Source of the DNA: a virus
IMG/VR virus record: IMGVR_UViG_3300005511_000846
Location: 1-42,889 of that record
DNA length: 42,889 nucleotides
Strand: one strand, 5' to 3'
Part shown: positions 7,580 to 19,017 of the stretch, piece after piece
Layout of the letters: every line of letters begins with the position of its first letter
Numbering within the stretch: the first letter of the stretch is position 1
Notes under the pieces: model-generated
Databases searched by the model: none
The model's input: only the letters and a program-made list of their open reading frames with translations
What the model was told of the DNA's origin: nothing
Made by a program: the position numbers and the translations under genes

Positions 7580-8146
7580 TCAGCCCTCCATCCAGCGACG
7601 CCACATGATGGGCTTCTGGTCGGAGGGAACGCGGTGCTTGCCGCGCGCGAGGGGATGCTTCGGGAACCCGCCGGCCGTGAGGCCAAGGCACACGAGGTCT
7701 ACCATCGCCGCCTTCGCGATCCTGCAGAACTGCTCGTCCTGTCGGGACCAATGGGCACCGTCATTGCCCCACGCGGCGAGAACCGGCGTTGATGTGTGGC
7801 GCGCGGTCGACAGAACCTGCTCGATGTGCATCCGGTTGTCGGCACCATGGGGCCACTCGTGCCGCTTCATTTCCTGCGGCTGCGAGGTGCGGACCGCAAA
7901 GAGGTTGATAACGGTGATACCGCCGTAACCCCAGTTGTCGGCAAATCTCATGAGTGCCTTGATCGTCGGATCGTCCTTATCGGCGTCCGCCGTCGACGGG
8001 TTCAGCATGCAGACGGGCAGCATGACCTTGCCGAGATCCCATTGGCGGGTCAGGCGATAACGGTATGTGCCGCGATCGGAGAGGACCGCTGTCTTGCGAA
8101 TGACGACTTCAGCGATCTGGTTGCCTTCGAGGTCGAGCGCCGTCAT
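7580..8146 (-). CDS. DUF1643 domain protein
   Basis: The 188-aa product matches the DUF1643 pattern: RYRLTRQW, then MLNPSTADA with DDPTI, then FADNWGYGGITVINLFAVR, and AAWGNDG near residue 125. The family is found in phages, plasmids and chromosomes, and its biochemical role is not settled. The start and stop codons are within four bases of the neighbouring sliding-clamp and 169-aa genes (ATGA overlap at 8143-8146), so it is expressed with the clamp. Family confidence is high; the function is open. Confidence 0.9.
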   Translation of the reverse strand: MTALDLEGNQIAEVVIRKTAVLSDRGTYRYRLTRQWDLGKVMLPVCMLNPSTADADKDDPTIKALMRFADNWGYGGITVINLFAVRTSQPQEMKRHEWPHGADNRMHIEQVLSTARHTSTPVLAAWGNDGAHWSRQDEQFCRIAKAAMVDLVCLGLTAGGFPKHPLARGKHRVPSDQKPIMWRRWMEG

Positions 8147-9291
8147 TGGTCAACGCCTCGCGCGTTCATCGGGGCAATCGCGAACGTGTCGTCGTTCTCG
8201 GCGGTCGGTCGGAAAACGGTGTTTCGAGCGGCCGTCAGACCAAGACGCACGTCCGTCGTGGCGATACTGTCGAGAACACCCTCGATCAGTTTACCATTCA
8301 GGCCGATCGAGAAATCGCTCTTGCCCGTGAAATCAACCGGCACGTTCTCGATTGCCGACTCGCCTTGCATCGTGACCAGTTCAAGGCGCAGAAGGCCTTC
8401 CTGGAGGGATAGACGGACACCTTCTTTCATGTGGTCGCCAGCAACGAGCAGCGTGCGTCGTACGGCGGACTTGAGGGCGTCGACCGGAACGACGATGTCG
8501 TGATCAGGAACCTCAGGCAGCGTCTCGAAGATCTTCACCGGGAATTCGCCGTCGATCAGTCGCGAGAAGATCGAGACAGCGCCGCAGCTCACCCGCATCA
8601 GGTGGTCGGAGATCGTTAAGGTTGCGGCCGTCTTCTCGTCCGAAAACAGCTTTCGCATCGTCTGCGCCAGCTTGCCTGGAATGATAACCGGATCGAACTT
8701 TGCAGCCGTCTGGGTGCGCAGGCGAACGGAACCGAGAGACCTGGTGTTGGTCGCCGCGACAAGCAGGCGGTCACCGTCCTGCTCAGGAGCCAGATAGATT
8801 CCGAGCGTGTACGGACGGCCCGTATCGGCCTTTTCAATAGCGAAGGAGACCTTGCCGATGGCGCTGATCAGCGGCGCGACATCCAGGCTGAACGGATCGC
8901 CCTCGATCTTGCTCGATATCGAAGGGAAATCGGCTTCGGGCAGGCTCAGCAGGGTGAAGCGTGATGCCTTGGTGCGCATCACGATCTGACCATCGTATTT
9001 GCCGGCAAGGAAATCGATCTCTGCCGATTCCGGCAAGCTCTTGACCAGTGCCAGCAAGTCGGTTGCAACAAGCGCTATGCCCATTTCGCCACCGGGCTCC
9101 AGCAGATCGCACAATGCCTCGATCTCGATGTTGAGATCGGTTCCACGCAGGCGCAGCTGATCGCCCTCGGGCCGAAGCAGGACATGCGACAGGATCGGGA
9201 TCTGCGCGCCGCGCTCGGAGCCCGCACAGGCAGCGTCGAGTGCCGGCAGGAGCTGCGTGCGGTGGACGCGGAAAAGTGCCTTGTCAGCCAC
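8143..9291 (-). CDS. dnaN: Phage-encoded DNA polymerase III beta sliding clamp
   Basis: The 382-aa product covers a whole beta clamp: three repeated domains with family landmarks such as PILSHVLLRP, DLNIEIEA, FPVKIFETLP, a KSAVRRTLLVA helix and a closing strand set. In cells the clamp encircles DNA and tethers polymerase and repair enzymes. Start: the GTG at 9291 overlaps the upstream stop (GTGGCTGA), while a longer open frame upstream lacks clamp sequence. No phage polymerase was recognised nearby, so the clamp presumably works with the host polymerase III or replaces the host clamp. It sits in the leftward early operon between small unknown genes and DUF1643. Confidence 0.92.
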   Translation of the reverse strand: MADKALFRVHRTQLLPALDAACAGSERGAQIPILSHVLLRPEGDQLRLRGTDLNIEIEALCDLLEPGGEMGIALVATDLLALVKSLPESAEIDFLAGKYDGQIVMRTKASRFTLLSLPEADFPSISSKIEGDPFSLDVAPLISAIGKVSFAIEKADTGRPYTLGIYLAPEQDGDRLLVAATNTRSLGSVRLRTQTAAKFDPVIIPGKLAQTMRKLFSDEKTAATLTISDHLMRVSCGAVSIFSRLIDGEFPVKIFETLPEVPDHDIVVPVDALKSAVRRTLLVAGDHMKEGVRLSLQEGLLRLELVTMQGESAIENVPVDFTGKSDFSIGLNGKLIEGVLDSIATTDVRLGLTAARNTVFRPTAENDDTFAIAPMNARGVDQ

Positions 9292-9496
9292 GGTCGACAC
9301 CTTCCCCAGCGCATTTGCGAGCCAGGTTGAGTTCGGCGACGGGGGGGCGCAACTCACAGCTCGCGCCGAACAGATCGAAAAACATTTCAAGGATCTCGCG
9401 CTGCGGCTCGCCATCGGCAATTGCGCGATACAGGCGTTCGAGATCAGCCTTCTCCGCAGCCGTCAGGCCATAGATCGCGTCAAGCTTGAGCGACAT
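9284..9496 (-). CDS. Small hypothetical protein upstream of the clamp gene
   Basis: A 70-aa, acidic, helical protein (MSLKLDAIYGLTAAEKADLE, then RLYRAIADGEPQREILEMFF). It has a clear GAGGTGA ribosome site six bases before ATG 9496. Its end overlaps the clamp start by eight bases, so the two are likely translated together. I do not recognise the family. The coupling suggests it works with, or only sets the level of, the clamp; nothing in the sequence decides this. Confidence 0.7.
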   Translation of the reverse strand: MSLKLDAIYGLTAAEKADLERLYRAIADGEPQREILEMFFDLFGASCELRPPVAELNLARKCAGEGVDRG

Positions 9497-13080: not shown

Positions 13081-13271
13081 TGAACATTCTGGCGCGAACA
13101 CCAAGATCCGAGACCATGAGGGTGTTCGACACCCTCCCGGCGCGCATCCGGCGTGCCGTGGCTTTTGCCGATTTCCCCTACGATCCGCGCGAAATCGCAG
13201 CCCGCCTTGAGCGAGGACGGCGGGTCGCGAGCGTGGCTCGATCGCTCGAAAAGCGGAGGACGATCCGATGA
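13080..13271 (+). CDS. Small hypothetical rhizobial phage protein (63 aa)
   Basis: A basic 63-aa protein with the core VFDTLPARIRRAVAFADFPY and AREIAARLERGRR-like helices (the actual start of the second helix is DPREIAARLERGRRVASVAR). Such short FDTLP...RR proteins recur in rhizobial prophages with no known function. TGATG at its start and ATGA at its end couple it to both neighbours. The helical, arginine-rich composition would allow nucleic-acid binding. Confidence 0.7.
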   Translation: MNILARTPRSETMRVFDTLPARIRRAVAFADFPYDPREIAARLERGRRVASVARSLEKRRTIR

Positions 13272-14734
13272 CCAACAATTATGCGCTCATCGAAGAGCGC
13301 TCCCGCGAGATCGTCTCAACCATCCAGCGCGACGGGTTCTATCTTTGCCCGAATGCGGGAATGCTGAAGACATGCATCCGCATGTGCACCAAGGGCCTGC
13401 TGGAAAGGGACACGAAGGACGGCAATCGTTTTACCTTCACAGCCAAGGGCAAGACGCTGCACGGCGCGACGAAGTCGGCGCCAGATACCCCTGCGTTCAT
13501 CGTGACACCGGGTCAGCGGCTCAAGCATCACGCGCTTGCCAACCTGTTCCCGATGCTGAGCGACGGCGAGCTCAACGAGCTTTCCCAGGATATCGCGGAA
13601 CGCGGTCAGGAAAACCCGGTCTGGATCTACCAGGGCGAGATCATCGACGGCCGAAACCGCGAGGAAGCGTGCCACCGCGCCGGGATCGTGCCACGGTACA
13701 GCGAATATCGCGGCGACGACCCGCTTGGTTTCGTTCTGTCGCTCAACCTGCGGCGGCGACACCTGACGGAAAGCCAGCGCGCCATGGTCGCCGCAAAGAT
13801 TGTTGACTGGGAGCGCGGCCTCAATCAGGCAACCGCCGGGTCAGCAAATTTGCCGACCCGGGAAGCGGCACGCAGGCTGTCGATTTCCGAACGGGCCGTG
13901 ATCTCCGCCAAGCGTATCCGCGAGCATGGCTCCGAAGCCCTGGTGCGGGCTATCGACACCGGCAAGATTTCCGTCAGCGCAGGCGCCGAACTGAGCTACC
14001 TGGAGCGGCAGGAGCAGGAAAAGGCCCTGCGCACCGAAGAAAAGCAGATCATCGCCCGGGCCAAGGAAATTCGAACCGACCGAATGGCGAAAAAGCGCGC
14101 GGTTCGCCTCGGTCTGATCAGCTTCGTCGCCGAGCGCGGCAGTATGACGGCCGGCGAGATGCCGCGCGCCGCATTTCCGGTCGGCTATGCGGACCCTCCG
14201 TGGGAGCAGGAGGCGTGGAGCGACGAGACAGGCCAGGACAAGGGCCTGCTCTACCCATCCATGCCGCTCGACGAGATCAAGGCGCTCTGCGCGGGAGAGA
14301 GTAGCCCGTTCACGCCGGATGCGGTGGTGCATCTCTGGGTGCCGAGCAATCGGGTCGACGATGGTATCGAAGTCCTGCGGGCATGGGGTTTCGAGTTCGT
14401 CACGATCTGGACCTGGGACAAGGAAGACATGGGCATGGGTCGGTGGCTTCGCGACCAGACGGAACACATCCTGATCGGCAAGCGCGGCAATTTCCCCGGC
14501 CTTCTTCCCGGCACGCAGCCGCGCAGCCTGCATCGGGAAAAGAAGGGTGAGCATAGCCGAAAACCGGTCTTCTTCGCGGAGGAGATCGACCGCCTTTATC
14601 CCGACATGCGCAAGATCGAGCTGTTTCAGCGGCGTGACAGCCTCGTCGATGGCGACGTCCGGCTTAACGGCAAATGGCACTTCTGGGGATTCGAGGCGGG
14701 CGAACCCGACGAGAGCCGGGAGGCTGCTGAATGA
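13268..14734 (+). CDS. Fusion of winged helix, ParB-like domain and MT-A70 adenine methyltransferase
   Basis: A 488-aa, three-part protein. Residues 1-70 form a winged-helix-like unit ending FTFTAKGKTLHG. Residues 88-220 are a ParB/Spo0J-type domain (LSDGELNELSQDIAERGQEN, IIDGRNREEACHRAGI, then HTH TREAARRLSISERAVISAKR). Residues 300-480 are an MT-A70 N6-adenine methyltransferase with catalytic DPPW at 309-312 and PSMPLDEIKALC, IWTWDKED and EHILIGKRG motifs. It probably methylates adenine in phage or host DNA, with the ParB part giving DNA binding. Protection from restriction and a role in replication or partition are both possible. Coupled by ATGA overlaps on both sides. Confidence 0.9.
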   Translation: MTNNYALIEERSREIVSTIQRDGFYLCPNAGMLKTCIRMCTKGLLERDTKDGNRFTFTAKGKTLHGATKSAPDTPAFIVTPGQRLKHHALANLFPMLSDGELNELSQDIAERGQENPVWIYQGEIIDGRNREEACHRAGIVPRYSEYRGDDPLGFVLSLNLRRRHLTESQRAMVAAKIVDWERGLNQATAGSANLPTREAARRLSISERAVISAKRIREHGSEALVRAIDTGKISVSAGAELSYLERQEQEKALRTEEKQIIARAKEIRTDRMAKKRAVRLGLISFVAERGSMTAGEMPRAAFPVGYADPPWEQEAWSDETGQDKGLLYPSMPLDEIKALCAGESSPFTPDAVVHLWVPSNRVDDGIEVLRAWGFEFVTIWTWDKEDMGMGRWLRDQTEHILIGKRGNFPGLLPGTQPRSLHREKKGEHSRKPVFFAEEIDRLYPDMRKIELFQRRDSLVDGDVRLNGKWHFWGFEAGEPDESREAAE

Positions 14735-15015
14735 GCGCCCCTCCGACCTATACCGATATTTCCGACTGCGGGACATCCCAGGAACTGGCGCGCTGGCTGC
14801 TTCGATGCCCGCTTGCCGTGCTGCAGGCCGATCAAGGGTTCATCCGCCGCTGGCTGCAGGCGGCCGGGTTCCGCGATGGCCTGTCCTATCTCGACATCAT
14901 TCTTTCCGTCCTCCGCGAAGAGCGGCGCGAGGACGGAAACCTTGCACACACTATGGCCTTCGCCACCGCGAACTGGCGCCTCTGGCGCGTCGCGGATGGC
15001 CTTGAGCCGCGCTGA
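14731..15015 (+). CDS. Hypothetical protein between two methyltransferase genes (94 aa)
   Basis: The 94-aa product begins MSAPPTYTDISDCGTSQELA and is helical after residue 20 (RWLLRCPLAVLQADQGFIRR, then FRDGLSYLDIILSVLREERR). I do not recognise the family. ATG 14731 overlaps the MT-A70 stop as ATGA, and it ends 12 bases before the C5-methyltransferase start, so it is co-expressed with both. It may be an accessory factor of one of them, but that is only context. Confidence 0.7.
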   Translation: MSAPPTYTDISDCGTSQELARWLLRCPLAVLQADQGFIRRWLQAAGFRDGLSYLDIILSVLREERREDGNLAHTMAFATANWRLWRVADGLEPR

Positions 15016-15027
15016 GGGGACCCGCGC

Positions 15028-17139
15028 ATGAACATGCATTCAACGTTATTTGGGGACGCGTCCACATCCGAGGTATTTCGCGATTACGGCCGTGCACCGC
15101 CGATGATCGTGGACAGTTTCGCGGGCGGCGGAGGGGCGTCCACGGGGATCGAGATGGCGCTCGGGCGCTCGCCCGATATCGCGATCAACCACAATCCGGC
15201 GGCTCTGGCGCTGCATGCGGCAAACCACCCCGAAACGCTTCACCTTTCTGAAAACGTCTACAAGGTCGATCCGCTCGATTATCTCGCTGGCCGTCATATC
15301 GGTCTCATGCACTTCTCGCCCGATTGCAAGCACTTCTCCAAGGCCAAAGGCGGCAAGCCGGTGGAGCGCAATATCCGCGATCTCGCATGGATCATTCCCG
15401 GATGGGTCGAGCGCATCCAGAAAAGCGGCGGCAAGATCGACGTGATCACCATGGAGAACGTCGAGGAGTTCAAGGACTACGGGCCGTTGATCTCGACCGA
15501 CCGTGGCCTGATGCCCGATCCTGAACGCAAGGGCGAGACATTCCAGAAGTGGTGCAGGCAGCTCCGCCGGCTCGGTGCGAAGATATCCCATCGTGAGCTG
15601 CGCGCATGCGACTACGGTGCGCCAACCATCCGCAAGCGGCTGTTCATGATCATTCGTTTCGACGGGCAGAAGATCGTCTGGCCTACGCCGACCCACGGCG
15701 CGCCGGACGACCGGGACGTGATCGCCGGCCGCAAGCTGCCATGGCGCACCGCGGCGGAGATCATCGACTGGTCGCTGCCTTGCCCTTCCATCTTCGACAG
15801 CGCCGAGGATATCTTCCGGAAGTTCGGCCTGCGGGCTGTCCGCCCGTTGGCGGACAACACCATGGCTCGCGTGGCGCGTGGCATGTACCGGTATGTGCTG
15901 AATGCGATCCGTCCTTATCTGGTGAACCTCACGCATGGAGCGCGGCTGGAGGATGTTGCTGATCCCTTCAACACGATCACTGCAGCGCATAGAGGAGAGA
16001 AGGCGGTCGTCTCGCCTTCCGTAACCCGGTTCAATACGGGCGCCACGGGTCAGGATCTGCGCGAACCGCTTTCGACGATCACCGCAAACAGCTTCATCAA
16101 GAAGCCAGGGGGCGCGGCTCCTCTTGGTCTCATCGCGCCGCACCTGATGACGATGCGAAATTCCGGCAAGCCGTTCAACGGGGCAGATGAGCCGACGCAT
16201 ACGATCACCGCCGGAGGGGCAGGTCTTTCCGTGGTGGCGCCTGTCCTGACCCATGCGCAACAGGGAGGGCGCGTCCGTAGCGTCGAAAAACCGCACCACA
16301 CGATTACCGCCAGCAAGAAAGACCAGAACTCGGTCATCATCCCGACGCTGGTCGGCTGTGGCGGCCGTGCCGGACAGAGTCGACCGCGCGGCGGGGATGA
16401 GCCGATGGCGACGATCACCTCGAAGGCCGACGTATGCTCGGCGGTGGCGTTCATCGCGCAGCACAATATCGATGGCCACAGTGGCTTGGGCAATCCCGGT
16501 CGGTCGGCGGACGTCCCGCTTTCGACCGTGACGGCGACCGGCGCGCAGCAGGGCGTGGTCAGCGCCTTCATATCCCGCCAGTTCGGAACATCGACCGGGC
16601 ACGCGATCGACGAGCCGTCAGCGACGATCACAGCCGATGGCGGCGGAAAGTCGATGCTCGTCGCCCCTTACCTGCAGGCCTATTACGGCACGGGCGACGG
16701 GGGCGAGGAAAACCAGCCTGCACGCACGATTACGACGAAGGATAGGCACGGTCACGTAGAGGCTAGGCTCGACGTCCCGCCTTTCACCCCCGACCAGATG
16801 GCCCGCGCGCGCCAGGTCGCCGACTTCCTGCGGTCGCATGGCTTCTGGGACGAACGCGAGATCGTGACGCTGGAGATCGGCGACGAGACGTTCGTCATCG
16901 TCGATATCGGCATGCGCATGCTGACGCCGCGCGAGCTCTACAACGCGCAAGGATTCCCGCCGGACTACTTCATTGACGGCGTATGGACTGAGCCCGCATC
17001 CGGCGGCGAACCGGTGTGGATGCCGTTTCCGAAATCGGTCCAAGTCTCGTGCGTCGGCAATTCGGTGTCACCCTATCCCTATGCCGCGATCGTCGCGGCG
17101 AATTGCAATCACCTCGTGGTGAGACGGGAGGCGGCGTGA
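15028..17139 (+). CDS. DNA (cytosine-5) methyltransferase with a large repeated insert
   Basis: A 703-aa C5-cytosine methyltransferase. Visible motifs: I, VDSFAGGGGASTG (28-40); IV, FSPDCKHFS with nucleophile C100 (PDC in place of the usual PPC); VI, MENVEEF (142-148); VIII, a relaxed TIRKR (200-204); and X, VGNSVSPYPYA at the C-terminus. Between VIII and the C-terminal part lies a 250-residue region (about 312-575) with eight copies of a P-x-x-T-[I/V]-T element, each followed by a hydrophobic strand such as VVAPVL. It occupies the target-recognition slot, so the repeats may shape specificity. It likely protects phage DNA from restriction. Usual bacterial enzymes are 330-450 aa. Confidence 0.93.
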   Translation: MNMHSTLFGDASTSEVFRDYGRAPPMIVDSFAGGGGASTGIEMALGRSPDIAINHNPAALALHAANHPETLHLSENVYKVDPLDYLAGRHIGLMHFSPDCKHFSKAKGGKPVERNIRDLAWIIPGWVERIQKSGGKIDVITMENVEEFKDYGPLISTDRGLMPDPERKGETFQKWCRQLRRLGAKISHRELRACDYGAPTIRKRLFMIIRFDGQKIVWPTPTHGAPDDRDVIAGRKLPWRTAAEIIDWSLPCPSIFDSAEDIFRKFGLRAVRPLADNTMARVARGMYRYVLNAIRPYLVNLTHGARLEDVADPFNTITAAHRGEKAVVSPSVTRFNTGATGQDLREPLSTITANSFIKKPGGAAPLGLIAPHLMTMRNSGKPFNGADEPTHTITAGGAGLSVVAPVLTHAQQGGRVRSVEKPHHTITASKKDQNSVIIPTLVGCGGRAGQSRPRGGDEPMATITSKADVCSAVAFIAQHNIDGHSGLGNPGRSADVPLSTVTATGAQQGVVSAFISRQFGTSTGHAIDEPSATITADGGGKSMLVAPYLQAYYGTGDGGEENQPARTITTKDRHGHVEARLDVPPFTPDQMARARQVADFLRSHGFWDEREIVTLEIGDETFVIVDIGMRMLTPRELYNAQGFPPDYFIDGVWTEPASGGEPVWMPFPKSVQVSCVGNSVSPYPYAAIVAANCNHLVVRREAA

Positions 17140-18356
17140 ACGAGCCAGAACGCCACACAGCCTCCCGCGCATGGTCCTGGCGCCACGCGGTCGGCAAATC
17201 GGGCCTGCCGCCGATCACGCGGCTGGTGCTCCATACGCTCGGCCTCAAGATGGATGAGACCGGAGGGTCATGCTACCCGCCGATCTCCGAGCTTGTCGAC
17301 CTGACCGGCCTCGACAAGAAAACCGTGCTGAAACATCTCGACATCGCCGAGGAGAATGGCTGGATCGAGGTGGCGCAGCATGGCTTTCGCGGACAGAAAT
17401 GGAAGCGCAACGAGTATGTTGCGCGATGGCCGGGACGCGACCTGACGGGTGAAATTATCGCCGCCGATACTGCGCAAGGCGGTGGAGCTGTTCCACCACC
17501 TTGCGGAGAAAAGGTGGTGGAAATGGTTCCCGAAGGTGGTGGAAATGACGACCATAAGGTGGTGGAGCAGCTCCACCAAGATAAGATTCTTCCAGCTAAC
17601 TCTCCAGCTAACTCTCCAGCCGCTGGCGCGGAAGAGGGAGGATTGAAGCGGGTTGATCGAAAAAAGATCGAGCGTGAATTTACGCTCTGGTACGCCACCT
17701 GGAAGAAGGGCGATGTCGAGTTTGCACGCAACGCATGGTTCGCATTGCCGGATGAAGACCGAGCCGAATGCATCCAGCGGACCCCGGCCTACCTGCGGTG
17801 GGCGAAGTCCGAGGATATCATGGCGGCGGCCGTCTACCTAAAGAACCGGCATTGGAGGGATGTTCCAGACGAAGCGGTAGCACCCGCATCCCGTGGTATC
17901 GCCAAGGTCTGCGGCAAGCTCTGGATGGGAACGAGGCTTGCGGCGCTCTCGAAGGAGCCGACAGGGCGCATCATCGTCACGACGTTTGATGAGCGGCGTG
18001 TCGAGCGAGGCGAGATCACCATGGCAGCGCTGATGGCCGCCAAGCGCAAGGAGCATGGCTGGCCGCTTGTGACGGAGATGCGGGATCTTGCGAGGCGTGC
18101 GGAGCCGTTCATCACATCGCTGGCCATGCTGCCCAATGTCGAGAACTTCCGGCAGGTGAAGCGCGACAGCGATCTGTTCGCAGCCTGGGCGGACCTGCAT
18201 CAGCGCAGGGGTTGGCCGTTCATCGAGCGGCCGCCGGAGTACGTCTGGCTACCTCCTATTCCAGATGGTGCTGACAGCCTCGACGAGGCTGTCGAGGAGG
18301 CTCTCACCAATTTCCTTTCGACGATCAGCGAGGCGGGCAATGACGATGCAGCATAG
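17136..18356 (+). CDS. Winged-helix replication-initiator-like protein
   Basis: A 406-aa protein. Its N-terminal part (35-85: PITRLVLHTLGLKMDETGGS, then LVDLTGLDKKTVLKHLDIAE) is a helix-turn-helix domain of the type found in phage and plasmid replication initiators (lambda O/HTH_36-like). Residues 110-170 form a low-complexity linker encoded by repeated GGTGGTGGA DNA, and the C-terminal 230 residues are helical and unassigned. The start is GTG 17136, overlapping the methyltransferase stop (GTGA), with GGGAGG five bases upstream. Iterons inside the gene support an initiator role, as in lambda O. No helicase or helicase loader is recognised, so the host machinery is presumably recruited. Confidence 0.75.
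   Translation: MNEPERHTASRAWSWRHAVGKSGLPPITRLVLHTLGLKMDETGGSCYPPISELVDLTGLDKKTVLKHLDIAEENGWIEVAQHGFRGQKWKRNEYVARWPGRDLTGEIIAADTAQGGGAVPPPCGEKVVEMVPEGGGNDDHKVVEQLHQDKILPANSPANSPAAGAEEGGLKRVDRKKIEREFTLWYATWKKGDVEFARNAWFALPDEDRAECIQRTPAYLRWAKSEDIMAAAVYLKNRHWRDVPDEAVAPASRGIAKVCGKLWMGTRLAALSKEPTGRIIVTTFDERRVERGEITMAALMAAKRKEHGWPLVTEMRDLARRAEPFITSLAMLPNVENFRQVKRDSDLFAAWADLHQRRGWPFIERPPEYVWLPPIPDGADSLDEAVEEALTNFLSTISEAGNDDAA
17476..17620 (+). repeat. Iteron cluster inside the initiator gene; probable phage replication origin
   Basis: Direct AAGGTGGTGGA units lie at 17511-17521, 17533-17543 and 17556-17566 (spacing 22 and 23 bp), with a degenerate copy AAGGCGGTGGA at 17476-17486. Inverted copies are TCCACCACCTT (17492-17502) and TCCACCAAG (17572-17580). 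A 12-bp repeat CCAGCTAACTCT (17592-17603, 17604-17615) follows, next to the locally less GC-rich ATAAGATTCTTCC. Helically phased iterons in the middle of the initiator gene, flanked by an easier-to-melt stretch, is the lambda ori arrangement. Confidence 0.65.
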
Positions 18357-19017
18357 GCGCGGAAGCTTCCTACAGTTTCAGGGTCAGGACATCGAGATCC
18401 GCGACTTTGCGCTGACGAAGCTGGAGAACAGCAAGCGCTCGCTCGACATCCGAATCAGCCATATCGGAATGGCGTCGAAACGAATCGCTGACGAATATCC
18501 ACAGCTCGCGGCCTGGTTTTGCCTGCGGGTCGTCGCCGGACGCGAATTCCTTGTGGAAGAATCTCTGAAAAATGCGAGGGTCGATGCGCTTGTGCCGACC
18601 CGAAAAGGTGACAAGATCATGAAAAGGCACCGGATCATTCCGGCTCCGACGCTCCCTGTTCTGCCTGGTTATGTGCTGGTTAGATGCGTACCTTCCGCTG
18701 CCGCGATGGTTGGCTTAAGGCGGTTTGAACGGGTCCTTGACGTGGTTGGAACGCCAGAAAAGCCATACCGAGTCCCGGAGAAATTCGTTAGCAAGTTCAT
18801 CGAGAAAGCTGCTCTGGGTGAGTACGATCACAGGCCTCTTCCGCCTGTCGAATACGAGTTGGGACAGCGCGTTCGCGTCATCGACGGACCTTTCGCCAGC
18901 TTCCCCGGGTCGGTGATCGAGTTCGATGGCGAGAGTTGCCGGTTGAAGGTTGAGGTGATGATTTTCGGTCGAGAGACCCCCGTCGAATTAGATGTTGCAC
19001 AGATCGAAAAAGTGTGA
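18340..19017 (+). CDS. NusG/RfaH-like transcription elongation (antitermination) factor
   Basis: A 225-aa NusG-family protein. The NGN part is marked by AAWFCLRVVAGREFLVEESL and PTLPVLPGYVLVRC. The C-terminal KOW domain is marked by LGQRVRVIDGPFASFPGSVI and the closing strands ELDVAQIEKV. Proteins of this family bind RNA polymerase and modulate pausing and termination. ATG 18340 has GAGG seven bases upstream and overlaps the initiator gene. It is the last gene before the packaging and structural block, directly upstream of a hairpin terminator candidate, so it may be the switch that lets polymerase read into the late genes. Confidence 0.9.
   Translation: MTMQHRRGSFLQFQGQDIEIRDFALTKLENSKRSLDIRISHIGMASKRIADEYPQLAAWFCLRVVAGREFLVEESLKNARVDALVPTRKGDKIMKRHRIIPAPTLPVLPGYVLVRCVPSAAAMVGLRRFERVLDVVGTPEKPYRVPEKFVSKFIEKAALGEYDHRPLPPVEYELGQRVRVIDGPFASFPGSVIEFDGESCRLKVEVMIFGRETPVELDVAQIEKV

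Follow-up and report, generated by a model that had tools for sequence, protein, structure and literature searches.

A replication origin inside the gene of its own initiator, and the exchange of modules in such initiators, are already known from lambda O, pSK41 Rep and pPR9 Rep. In lambda O and Stx-phage O, iterons lie midway along the initiator gene and are followed by an AT-rich tract, the iteron number being 4 or 6 (PMC7466680). The N-terminal domain of pSK41 Rep binds boxes central in its own rep gene, the linker encoded by the origin is dispensable and the C-terminal domain binds DnaG, while in pPR9 Rep a pfam13730 N-terminal domain and its own origin region, placed on the pSK41 C-terminus, yield a mini-replicon that replicates (PMC5703833). 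In the PLE RepA_N satellites of ICP1, origin iterons and DNA-binding domain vary together while the C-terminus is conserved (PMC8263062). In repABC repC of Rhizobium etli, oriV lies inside the initiator coding sequence, and silent mutations abolish replication (PMC3155836). Finally, the p26 proteins of phi2LM21 and phi3LM21 are predicted replication initiators, in a report that does not mention iterons or a replication origin (PMC5537653).

The window analysed here is the whole 42,889-bp stretch of a virus record that carries integrase-family, repressor, terminase, portal and tail genes. Its initiator-like gene and the neighbour of that gene have the following features:

17136-18356, + strand: initiator gene (GTG start, 406 aa; HTH_36 and phrog_270 matches)
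17163-17429, + strand: N-terminal winged-helix domain, residues 10-98 (HTH_36 profile, structure model, Foldseek)
17316-17354, + strand: recognition helix, residues 61-73 (structure model; K61, K62 and L65 covary with bases 7, 10 and 8)
17649-18350, + strand: C-terminal domain, residues 172-405 (retained while the N-terminal domain swaps)
18343-19017, + strand: NusG-like antiterminator gene, commonly found next downstream (PF02357, E=2.5e-13; phrog_6386)

By its profile matches, the 406-aa protein is an initiator of the phrog_270/HTH_36 kind. The HTH_36 Pfam profile (PF13730) matches residues 23-77 with E=3.9e-11 and 43 bits, against a cut-off of 25 bits, in line with the winged-helix N-terminus proposed from the sequence alone, and the PHROG profile phrog_270 ('replication initiation protein') matches residues 12-400 with E=6.6e-33. 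The best Foldseek matches of the N-terminal domain are winged helices, e.g. LexA, ArsR, MarR and DnaD-N. Linker residues 99-169 are predicted to be disordered in the structure model, and a fold search with the C-terminal domain gave no significant match, the best listed ones being winged helices. The O-like families phrog_391 (E=2.6e-5) and phrog_678 (E=9e-4) match the winged helix only, and weakly; the RepA_N Pfam domain is absent in 12 of 12 members scanned, in which the Pfam domain is HTH_36. Judged by family match and neighbours, the window initiator is neither of the lambda O type nor a RepA_N protein.

The iterons of the window are likewise placed mid-gene, as in lambda O (PMC7466680). 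Unlike lambda, the window has no recognised P-type loader, the next gene being NusG-like, and the stretch adjoining the iterons is less GC-rich only locally and carries 12-bp repeats. The locus resembles pPR9/pSK41 in that an N-terminal domain and the origin (here the proposed one) are exchangeable on a constant C-terminus, and the pPR9 N-terminal domain is HTH_36 (pfam13730), as in the window initiator; however, those are plasmids of Firmicutes (staphylococci), and the part of the report used here describes no residue-base code (PMC5703833). The PLE RepA_N system differs in its intergenic origin and its domain family (PMC8263062). With repC the window shares a (here probable) in-gene origin and the bacterial family of its hosts, but repC lacks iterons and has an extensive A+T-rich region (PMC3155836). 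The p26 proteins of phi2LM21 and phi3LM21 have C-termini homologous to that of the window initiator and occupy the same place ahead of a NusG-like gene. What is new is the family, the base-by-base covariation (a putative recognition code) and a shared 12-bp element, for none of which we found an earlier description in the open-access literature.

The order of initiator and NusG-like gene also occurs in Rivra, Nsp-JY10, phi3LM21, phi2LM21 and two phage-like plasmids. A scan of window ORFs that took in part of the small ones recognised no helicase loader or helicase, which counts against the origin reading. The prophage encodes a DNA polymerase III beta sliding clamp with all three Pfam domains (8143-9420, - strand). 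Upstream of the initiator, 13268-17139 holds two DNA methyltransferase genes, one of MT-A70 type and one of C5-cytosine type, a neighbourhood partly common to vB_LagS-V1, Nsp-JY10 and phi2LM21.

By direct computation on the window, the part of the initiator gene that encodes the linker contains AAGGTGGTGGA five times with no more than one mismatch, four times in direct and once in inverted orientation. An inverted half-copy completes the array, and the 12-bp repeats come after it:

17460-17657, + strand: raised synonymous-codon conservation, codons 109-174 (0.73-0.98 versus about 0.5 elsewhere)
17476-17486, + strand: iteron 1, AAGGCGGTGGA, one mismatch to AAGGTGGTGGA
17492-17502, - strand: iteron 2, inverted, exact match to AAGGTGGTGGA
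17511-17521, + strand: iteron 3, exact match to AAGGTGGTGGA
17533-17543, + strand: iteron 4, exact match to AAGGTGGTGGA
17544-17555, + strand: spacer AATGACGACCAT ahead of iteron 5; other families have similar CCT(A/G)A(C/T)GAC spacers at this place
17556-17566, + strand: iteron 5, exact match to AAGGTGGTGGA
17572-17577, - strand: inverted half-iteron TCCACC, a half-site whose counterpart in L019 is altered too
17591-17620, + strand: 12-bp repeats TCCAGCTAACTC, probable unwinding element (repeat finding with 100% matches; lag-12 signal)

The direct copies are spaced by 35, 22 and 23 bp, and the 22-23 bp phase corresponds to about two helical turns. The whole window contains six matches to AAGGTGGTGGA with at most one mismatch, five of them in the array, where 0.45 are expected; none of 100 dinucleotide shuffles of the window reached six. 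When synonymous codons were shuffled with the protein preserved, the maximum was three copies in 300 shuffles versus the five observed. Downstream of the iterons, the TCCA..TAAC repeats comprise two and a half units. The 45-mer at 17569, which adjoins the array, has 44% GC versus a gene mean of 61%, and 3% of the window's 45-mers have 44% GC or less; the stretch beside the iterons is less GC-rich locally and is not AT-rich in absolute terms. These results bear out the phased repeats of the sequence-only reading and its 12-bp repeat beside a less GC-rich stretch. That reading had also listed two inverted copies, of which one is exact and the second is the half-site TCCACC only, and a degenerate extra copy, which is present and lies upstream of the exact ones.

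A CCT(A/G)A(C/T)GAC spacer just 5' of an iteron, mostly the last, was seen in 12 of 42 winged-helix families; loci that bear it are the window (17544-17555), L333, L334, L170, L169, L404, L409, L296, L269, L374 and L431. It is found with differing iterons and is possibly a further conserved origin element.

To compare loci, we assembled related ones from viral contigs (41) and bacterial genomes (18), the main hosts of the latter being Rhizobiaceae (Rhizobium, Agrobacterium, Neorhizobium and Ciceribacter). From a codon alignment of 27 homologues (dereplicated), we took synonymous-codon identity as the fraction of identical amino acids that are also encoded by the same codon. It reaches 0.94-0.98 over codons 127-156 versus about 0.5 along the gene, and the 12-bp repeats fall inside the synonymously conserved stretch. 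In the same alignment, amino-acid identity over the array is ordinary and not raised. Since synonymous identity climbs over the array and amino-acid identity does not, the constraint acts on the DNA and not on the protein. The retained iterons occur in more than one reading frame and in either orientation; the repeat is translated as EGGGN in some copies and as KVVEM or VPPP in others. The expectation that iterons persist among homologues while linker residues change is thereby favoured. A homologue with the protein and without the repeats would have spoken against the proposed origin; there is none among close relatives, whereas the distant L184 and L375 have no detectable array. In L328, the initiator frame is short (134 aa) and the linker retains one iteron dyad and the 12-bp repeats; this is perhaps a decaying prophage.

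Comparison of the loci also shows directly that the array travels with the N-terminal domain. From about residue 155 on, L032 and L034-L040 share the C-terminal domain, but their N-terminal domain differs and their repeats are of CCGGCGACGGC type; in L033 and L061, a third N-terminal domain comes with GGGTGACA repeats. One C-terminus is thus combined with any of three N-terminal domains, and each of these has repeats of its own. The linkers of the CCGGCGACGGC-type relatives likewise have an excess of synonymous conservation (0.87-0.99). L166 is the converse case: its winged helix, its iterons and its 12-bp repeats are those of the window, and its C-terminus is a different one. The N-terminal domain and the iterons therefore swap as one module. 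In L382-L398 (several genomes, e.g. G1344), a stand-alone winged-helix ORF of about 110-130 aa with a SKPSVI-like helix lies directly upstream of the initiator, and the pair is multi-copy in one genome.

Concerted change is seen within the module as well. In L019, all six sites are GGTGGGGGA or its half, in place of GGTGGTGGA, and the recognition helix reads TVRKH versus TVLKH (L65R). The iteron change forces amino-acid changes in the protein (VVE to VGE). L194 (43% identity) also has TVR; it was found independently by a DNA-pattern scan for variant iterons. Another, loose DNA-pattern scan returned mostly unrelated contigs.

We computed residue-base covariation on 33 winged-helix domains below 85% identity, numbering the iteron A1A2G3G4T5G6G7T8G9G10A11. 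R65 occurs with G8 in 8/8 cases versus 0/25, an acidic residue 61 with a base other than G at position 7 in 11/11 versus 0/22, and K62 plus T63 with G10 in 9/9 versus 0/24; N62 goes with C10 (3/3). An unbiased scan of 92 columns placed residue 65 top for base 8 and residue 62 top for base 10, while for base 7 residue 50 came first and 61 second. The rule was drawn, before later loci, from relatives found by N-terminal alignment searches. In its first form, R65 gives G8 and otherwise T8, an acidic residue 61 gives C or A at base 7 and otherwise G, and K62 gives G10 and R62 A10. Loci found after the rule agree with it at bases 7 and 8 in 14/14 cases (by batch, 4/4 and 10/10 for base 8, 6/6 and 8/8 for base 7). 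The base-10 rule was narrowed to K62 plus T63 after discovery because L169 and L408 combine K62 with A10. For some families, we read the iteron consensus by eye, and L041, L335 and L405 contain a mixture of copies. A tree computed with the helix columns left out has only 4, 3 and 3 changes of the three binary traits, all of them coincident; with 3-4 independent changes, an independent-pairs test cannot reach p<0.05. The wing residue D93, suggested as partner of base 8 by L019 and L194, was rejected, as L336 combines D93 with T8.

Across 31 winged-helix families (below 60% identity), linker DNA is periodic at a lag of 22-24 (z up to 9.9 versus codon shuffles), and the same families show lag-12 periodicity (z=6.4 versus codon shuffles). 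The 12-bp repeat is found at p<=0.05 in 30 of 55 linkers, a set in which some linkers come from related families and a few matches are other low-complexity repeats. It accompanies different winged helices and different C-termini. From these sequence comparisons, the TCCA..TAAC repeats are probably an unwinding element.

The most likely reading, which we hold with considerable confidence, is that 17476-17620 is a prophage replication origin inside its own initiator gene, bound by the protein that this gene encodes. The sequence-only reading had proposed this, and the comparisons support it. The N-terminal winged helix would bind the iterons directly through the start of its recognition helix, with residue 61 reading base 7, residue 65 base 8 and residue 62 base 10, and several initiator molecules would line up in the 22-23 bp phase. 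The adjoining, less GC-rich 12-bp TCCA..TAAC repeats would then melt, and the C-terminal domain would bring in the host replisome.

Binding through the recognition helix would give the same picture if the repeats were operator sites that control the initiator gene itself or the NusG-like gene, with the origin elsewhere, and an antiterminator gene does directly follow the initiator gene. However, the array starts 340 bp into the gene and not at a promoter, and a scan of the window at up to one mismatch found no further iteron copy near the gene start; moreover, initiator-borne origins such as those of lambda O (PMC7466680) and pSK41 rep (PMC5703833) have this layout, with an array in mid-gene beside a melting-type stretch. 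We regard operator sites as unlikely. Still less probable is an RNA element, such as a nut-like site or attenuator hairpin for the NusG-like antiterminator, even though the transcript folds very stably at the array (z=-6.9) and a NusG-family gene lies downstream. Folding z ranges from -9.2 to +0.5 across 20 families, several of which have no structure beyond chance, and there is no Rfam match, so that an RNA element as the common function was rejected; in L019, direct copies without an inverted partner are altered as well, and covariation with a DNA-reading helix is unexpected for an RNA element. That the array is a low-complexity coding repeat of a Gly/Val/Pro-rich linker with no DNA function is hardly credible, since, repetitive and predicted disordered as the linker is, the copies occur in more than one frame and in both orientations, the array does not arise in shuffles that preserve the protein, and synonymous sites are frozen.

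GC skew had been proposed as a check on the origin. The detrended minimum of the window is at 17348, whereas the minima of two phage-like plasmids lie elsewhere (NZ_CP109971 near parA, at 45.4 kb; NZ_CP049252 at 21.7 kb). Around the array, the skew difference in 26 homologues is small (0.045 versus 0.065; higher downstream in 20/26), and gene direction confounds it. We therefore rejected GC skew as proof of an origin. The two plasmids, NZ_CP109971.1 of Agrobacterium salinitolerans and NZ_CP049252.1 of Rhizobium rhizoryzae (L441 and L442), are circular and carry phage structural genes, ParA and the same initiator type, followed by a NusG-family gene; they are probable phage-plasmids. The presence of this initiator type on two ParA plasmids fits a role in autonomous replication, and a second initiator there is possible.

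The array in the initiator gene locates a probable replication origin for little-studied rhizobial prophages and phage-plasmids, and is a case in which a constraint on DNA writes part of a protein's linker. The pairing of iteron and helix can be tested directly by simple binding assays. On balance, we favour the broader proposal that in HTH_36 phage initiators residues 61, 62 and 65 directly specify bases 7, 10 and 8, with TCCA..TAAC as a general melting module. If this is true, the origins of many unstudied phages and phage-plasmids, and the specificity of these origins, would be predictable from sequence, and the covariation would make origin specificity, and hence replicon compatibility, predictable from three residues.
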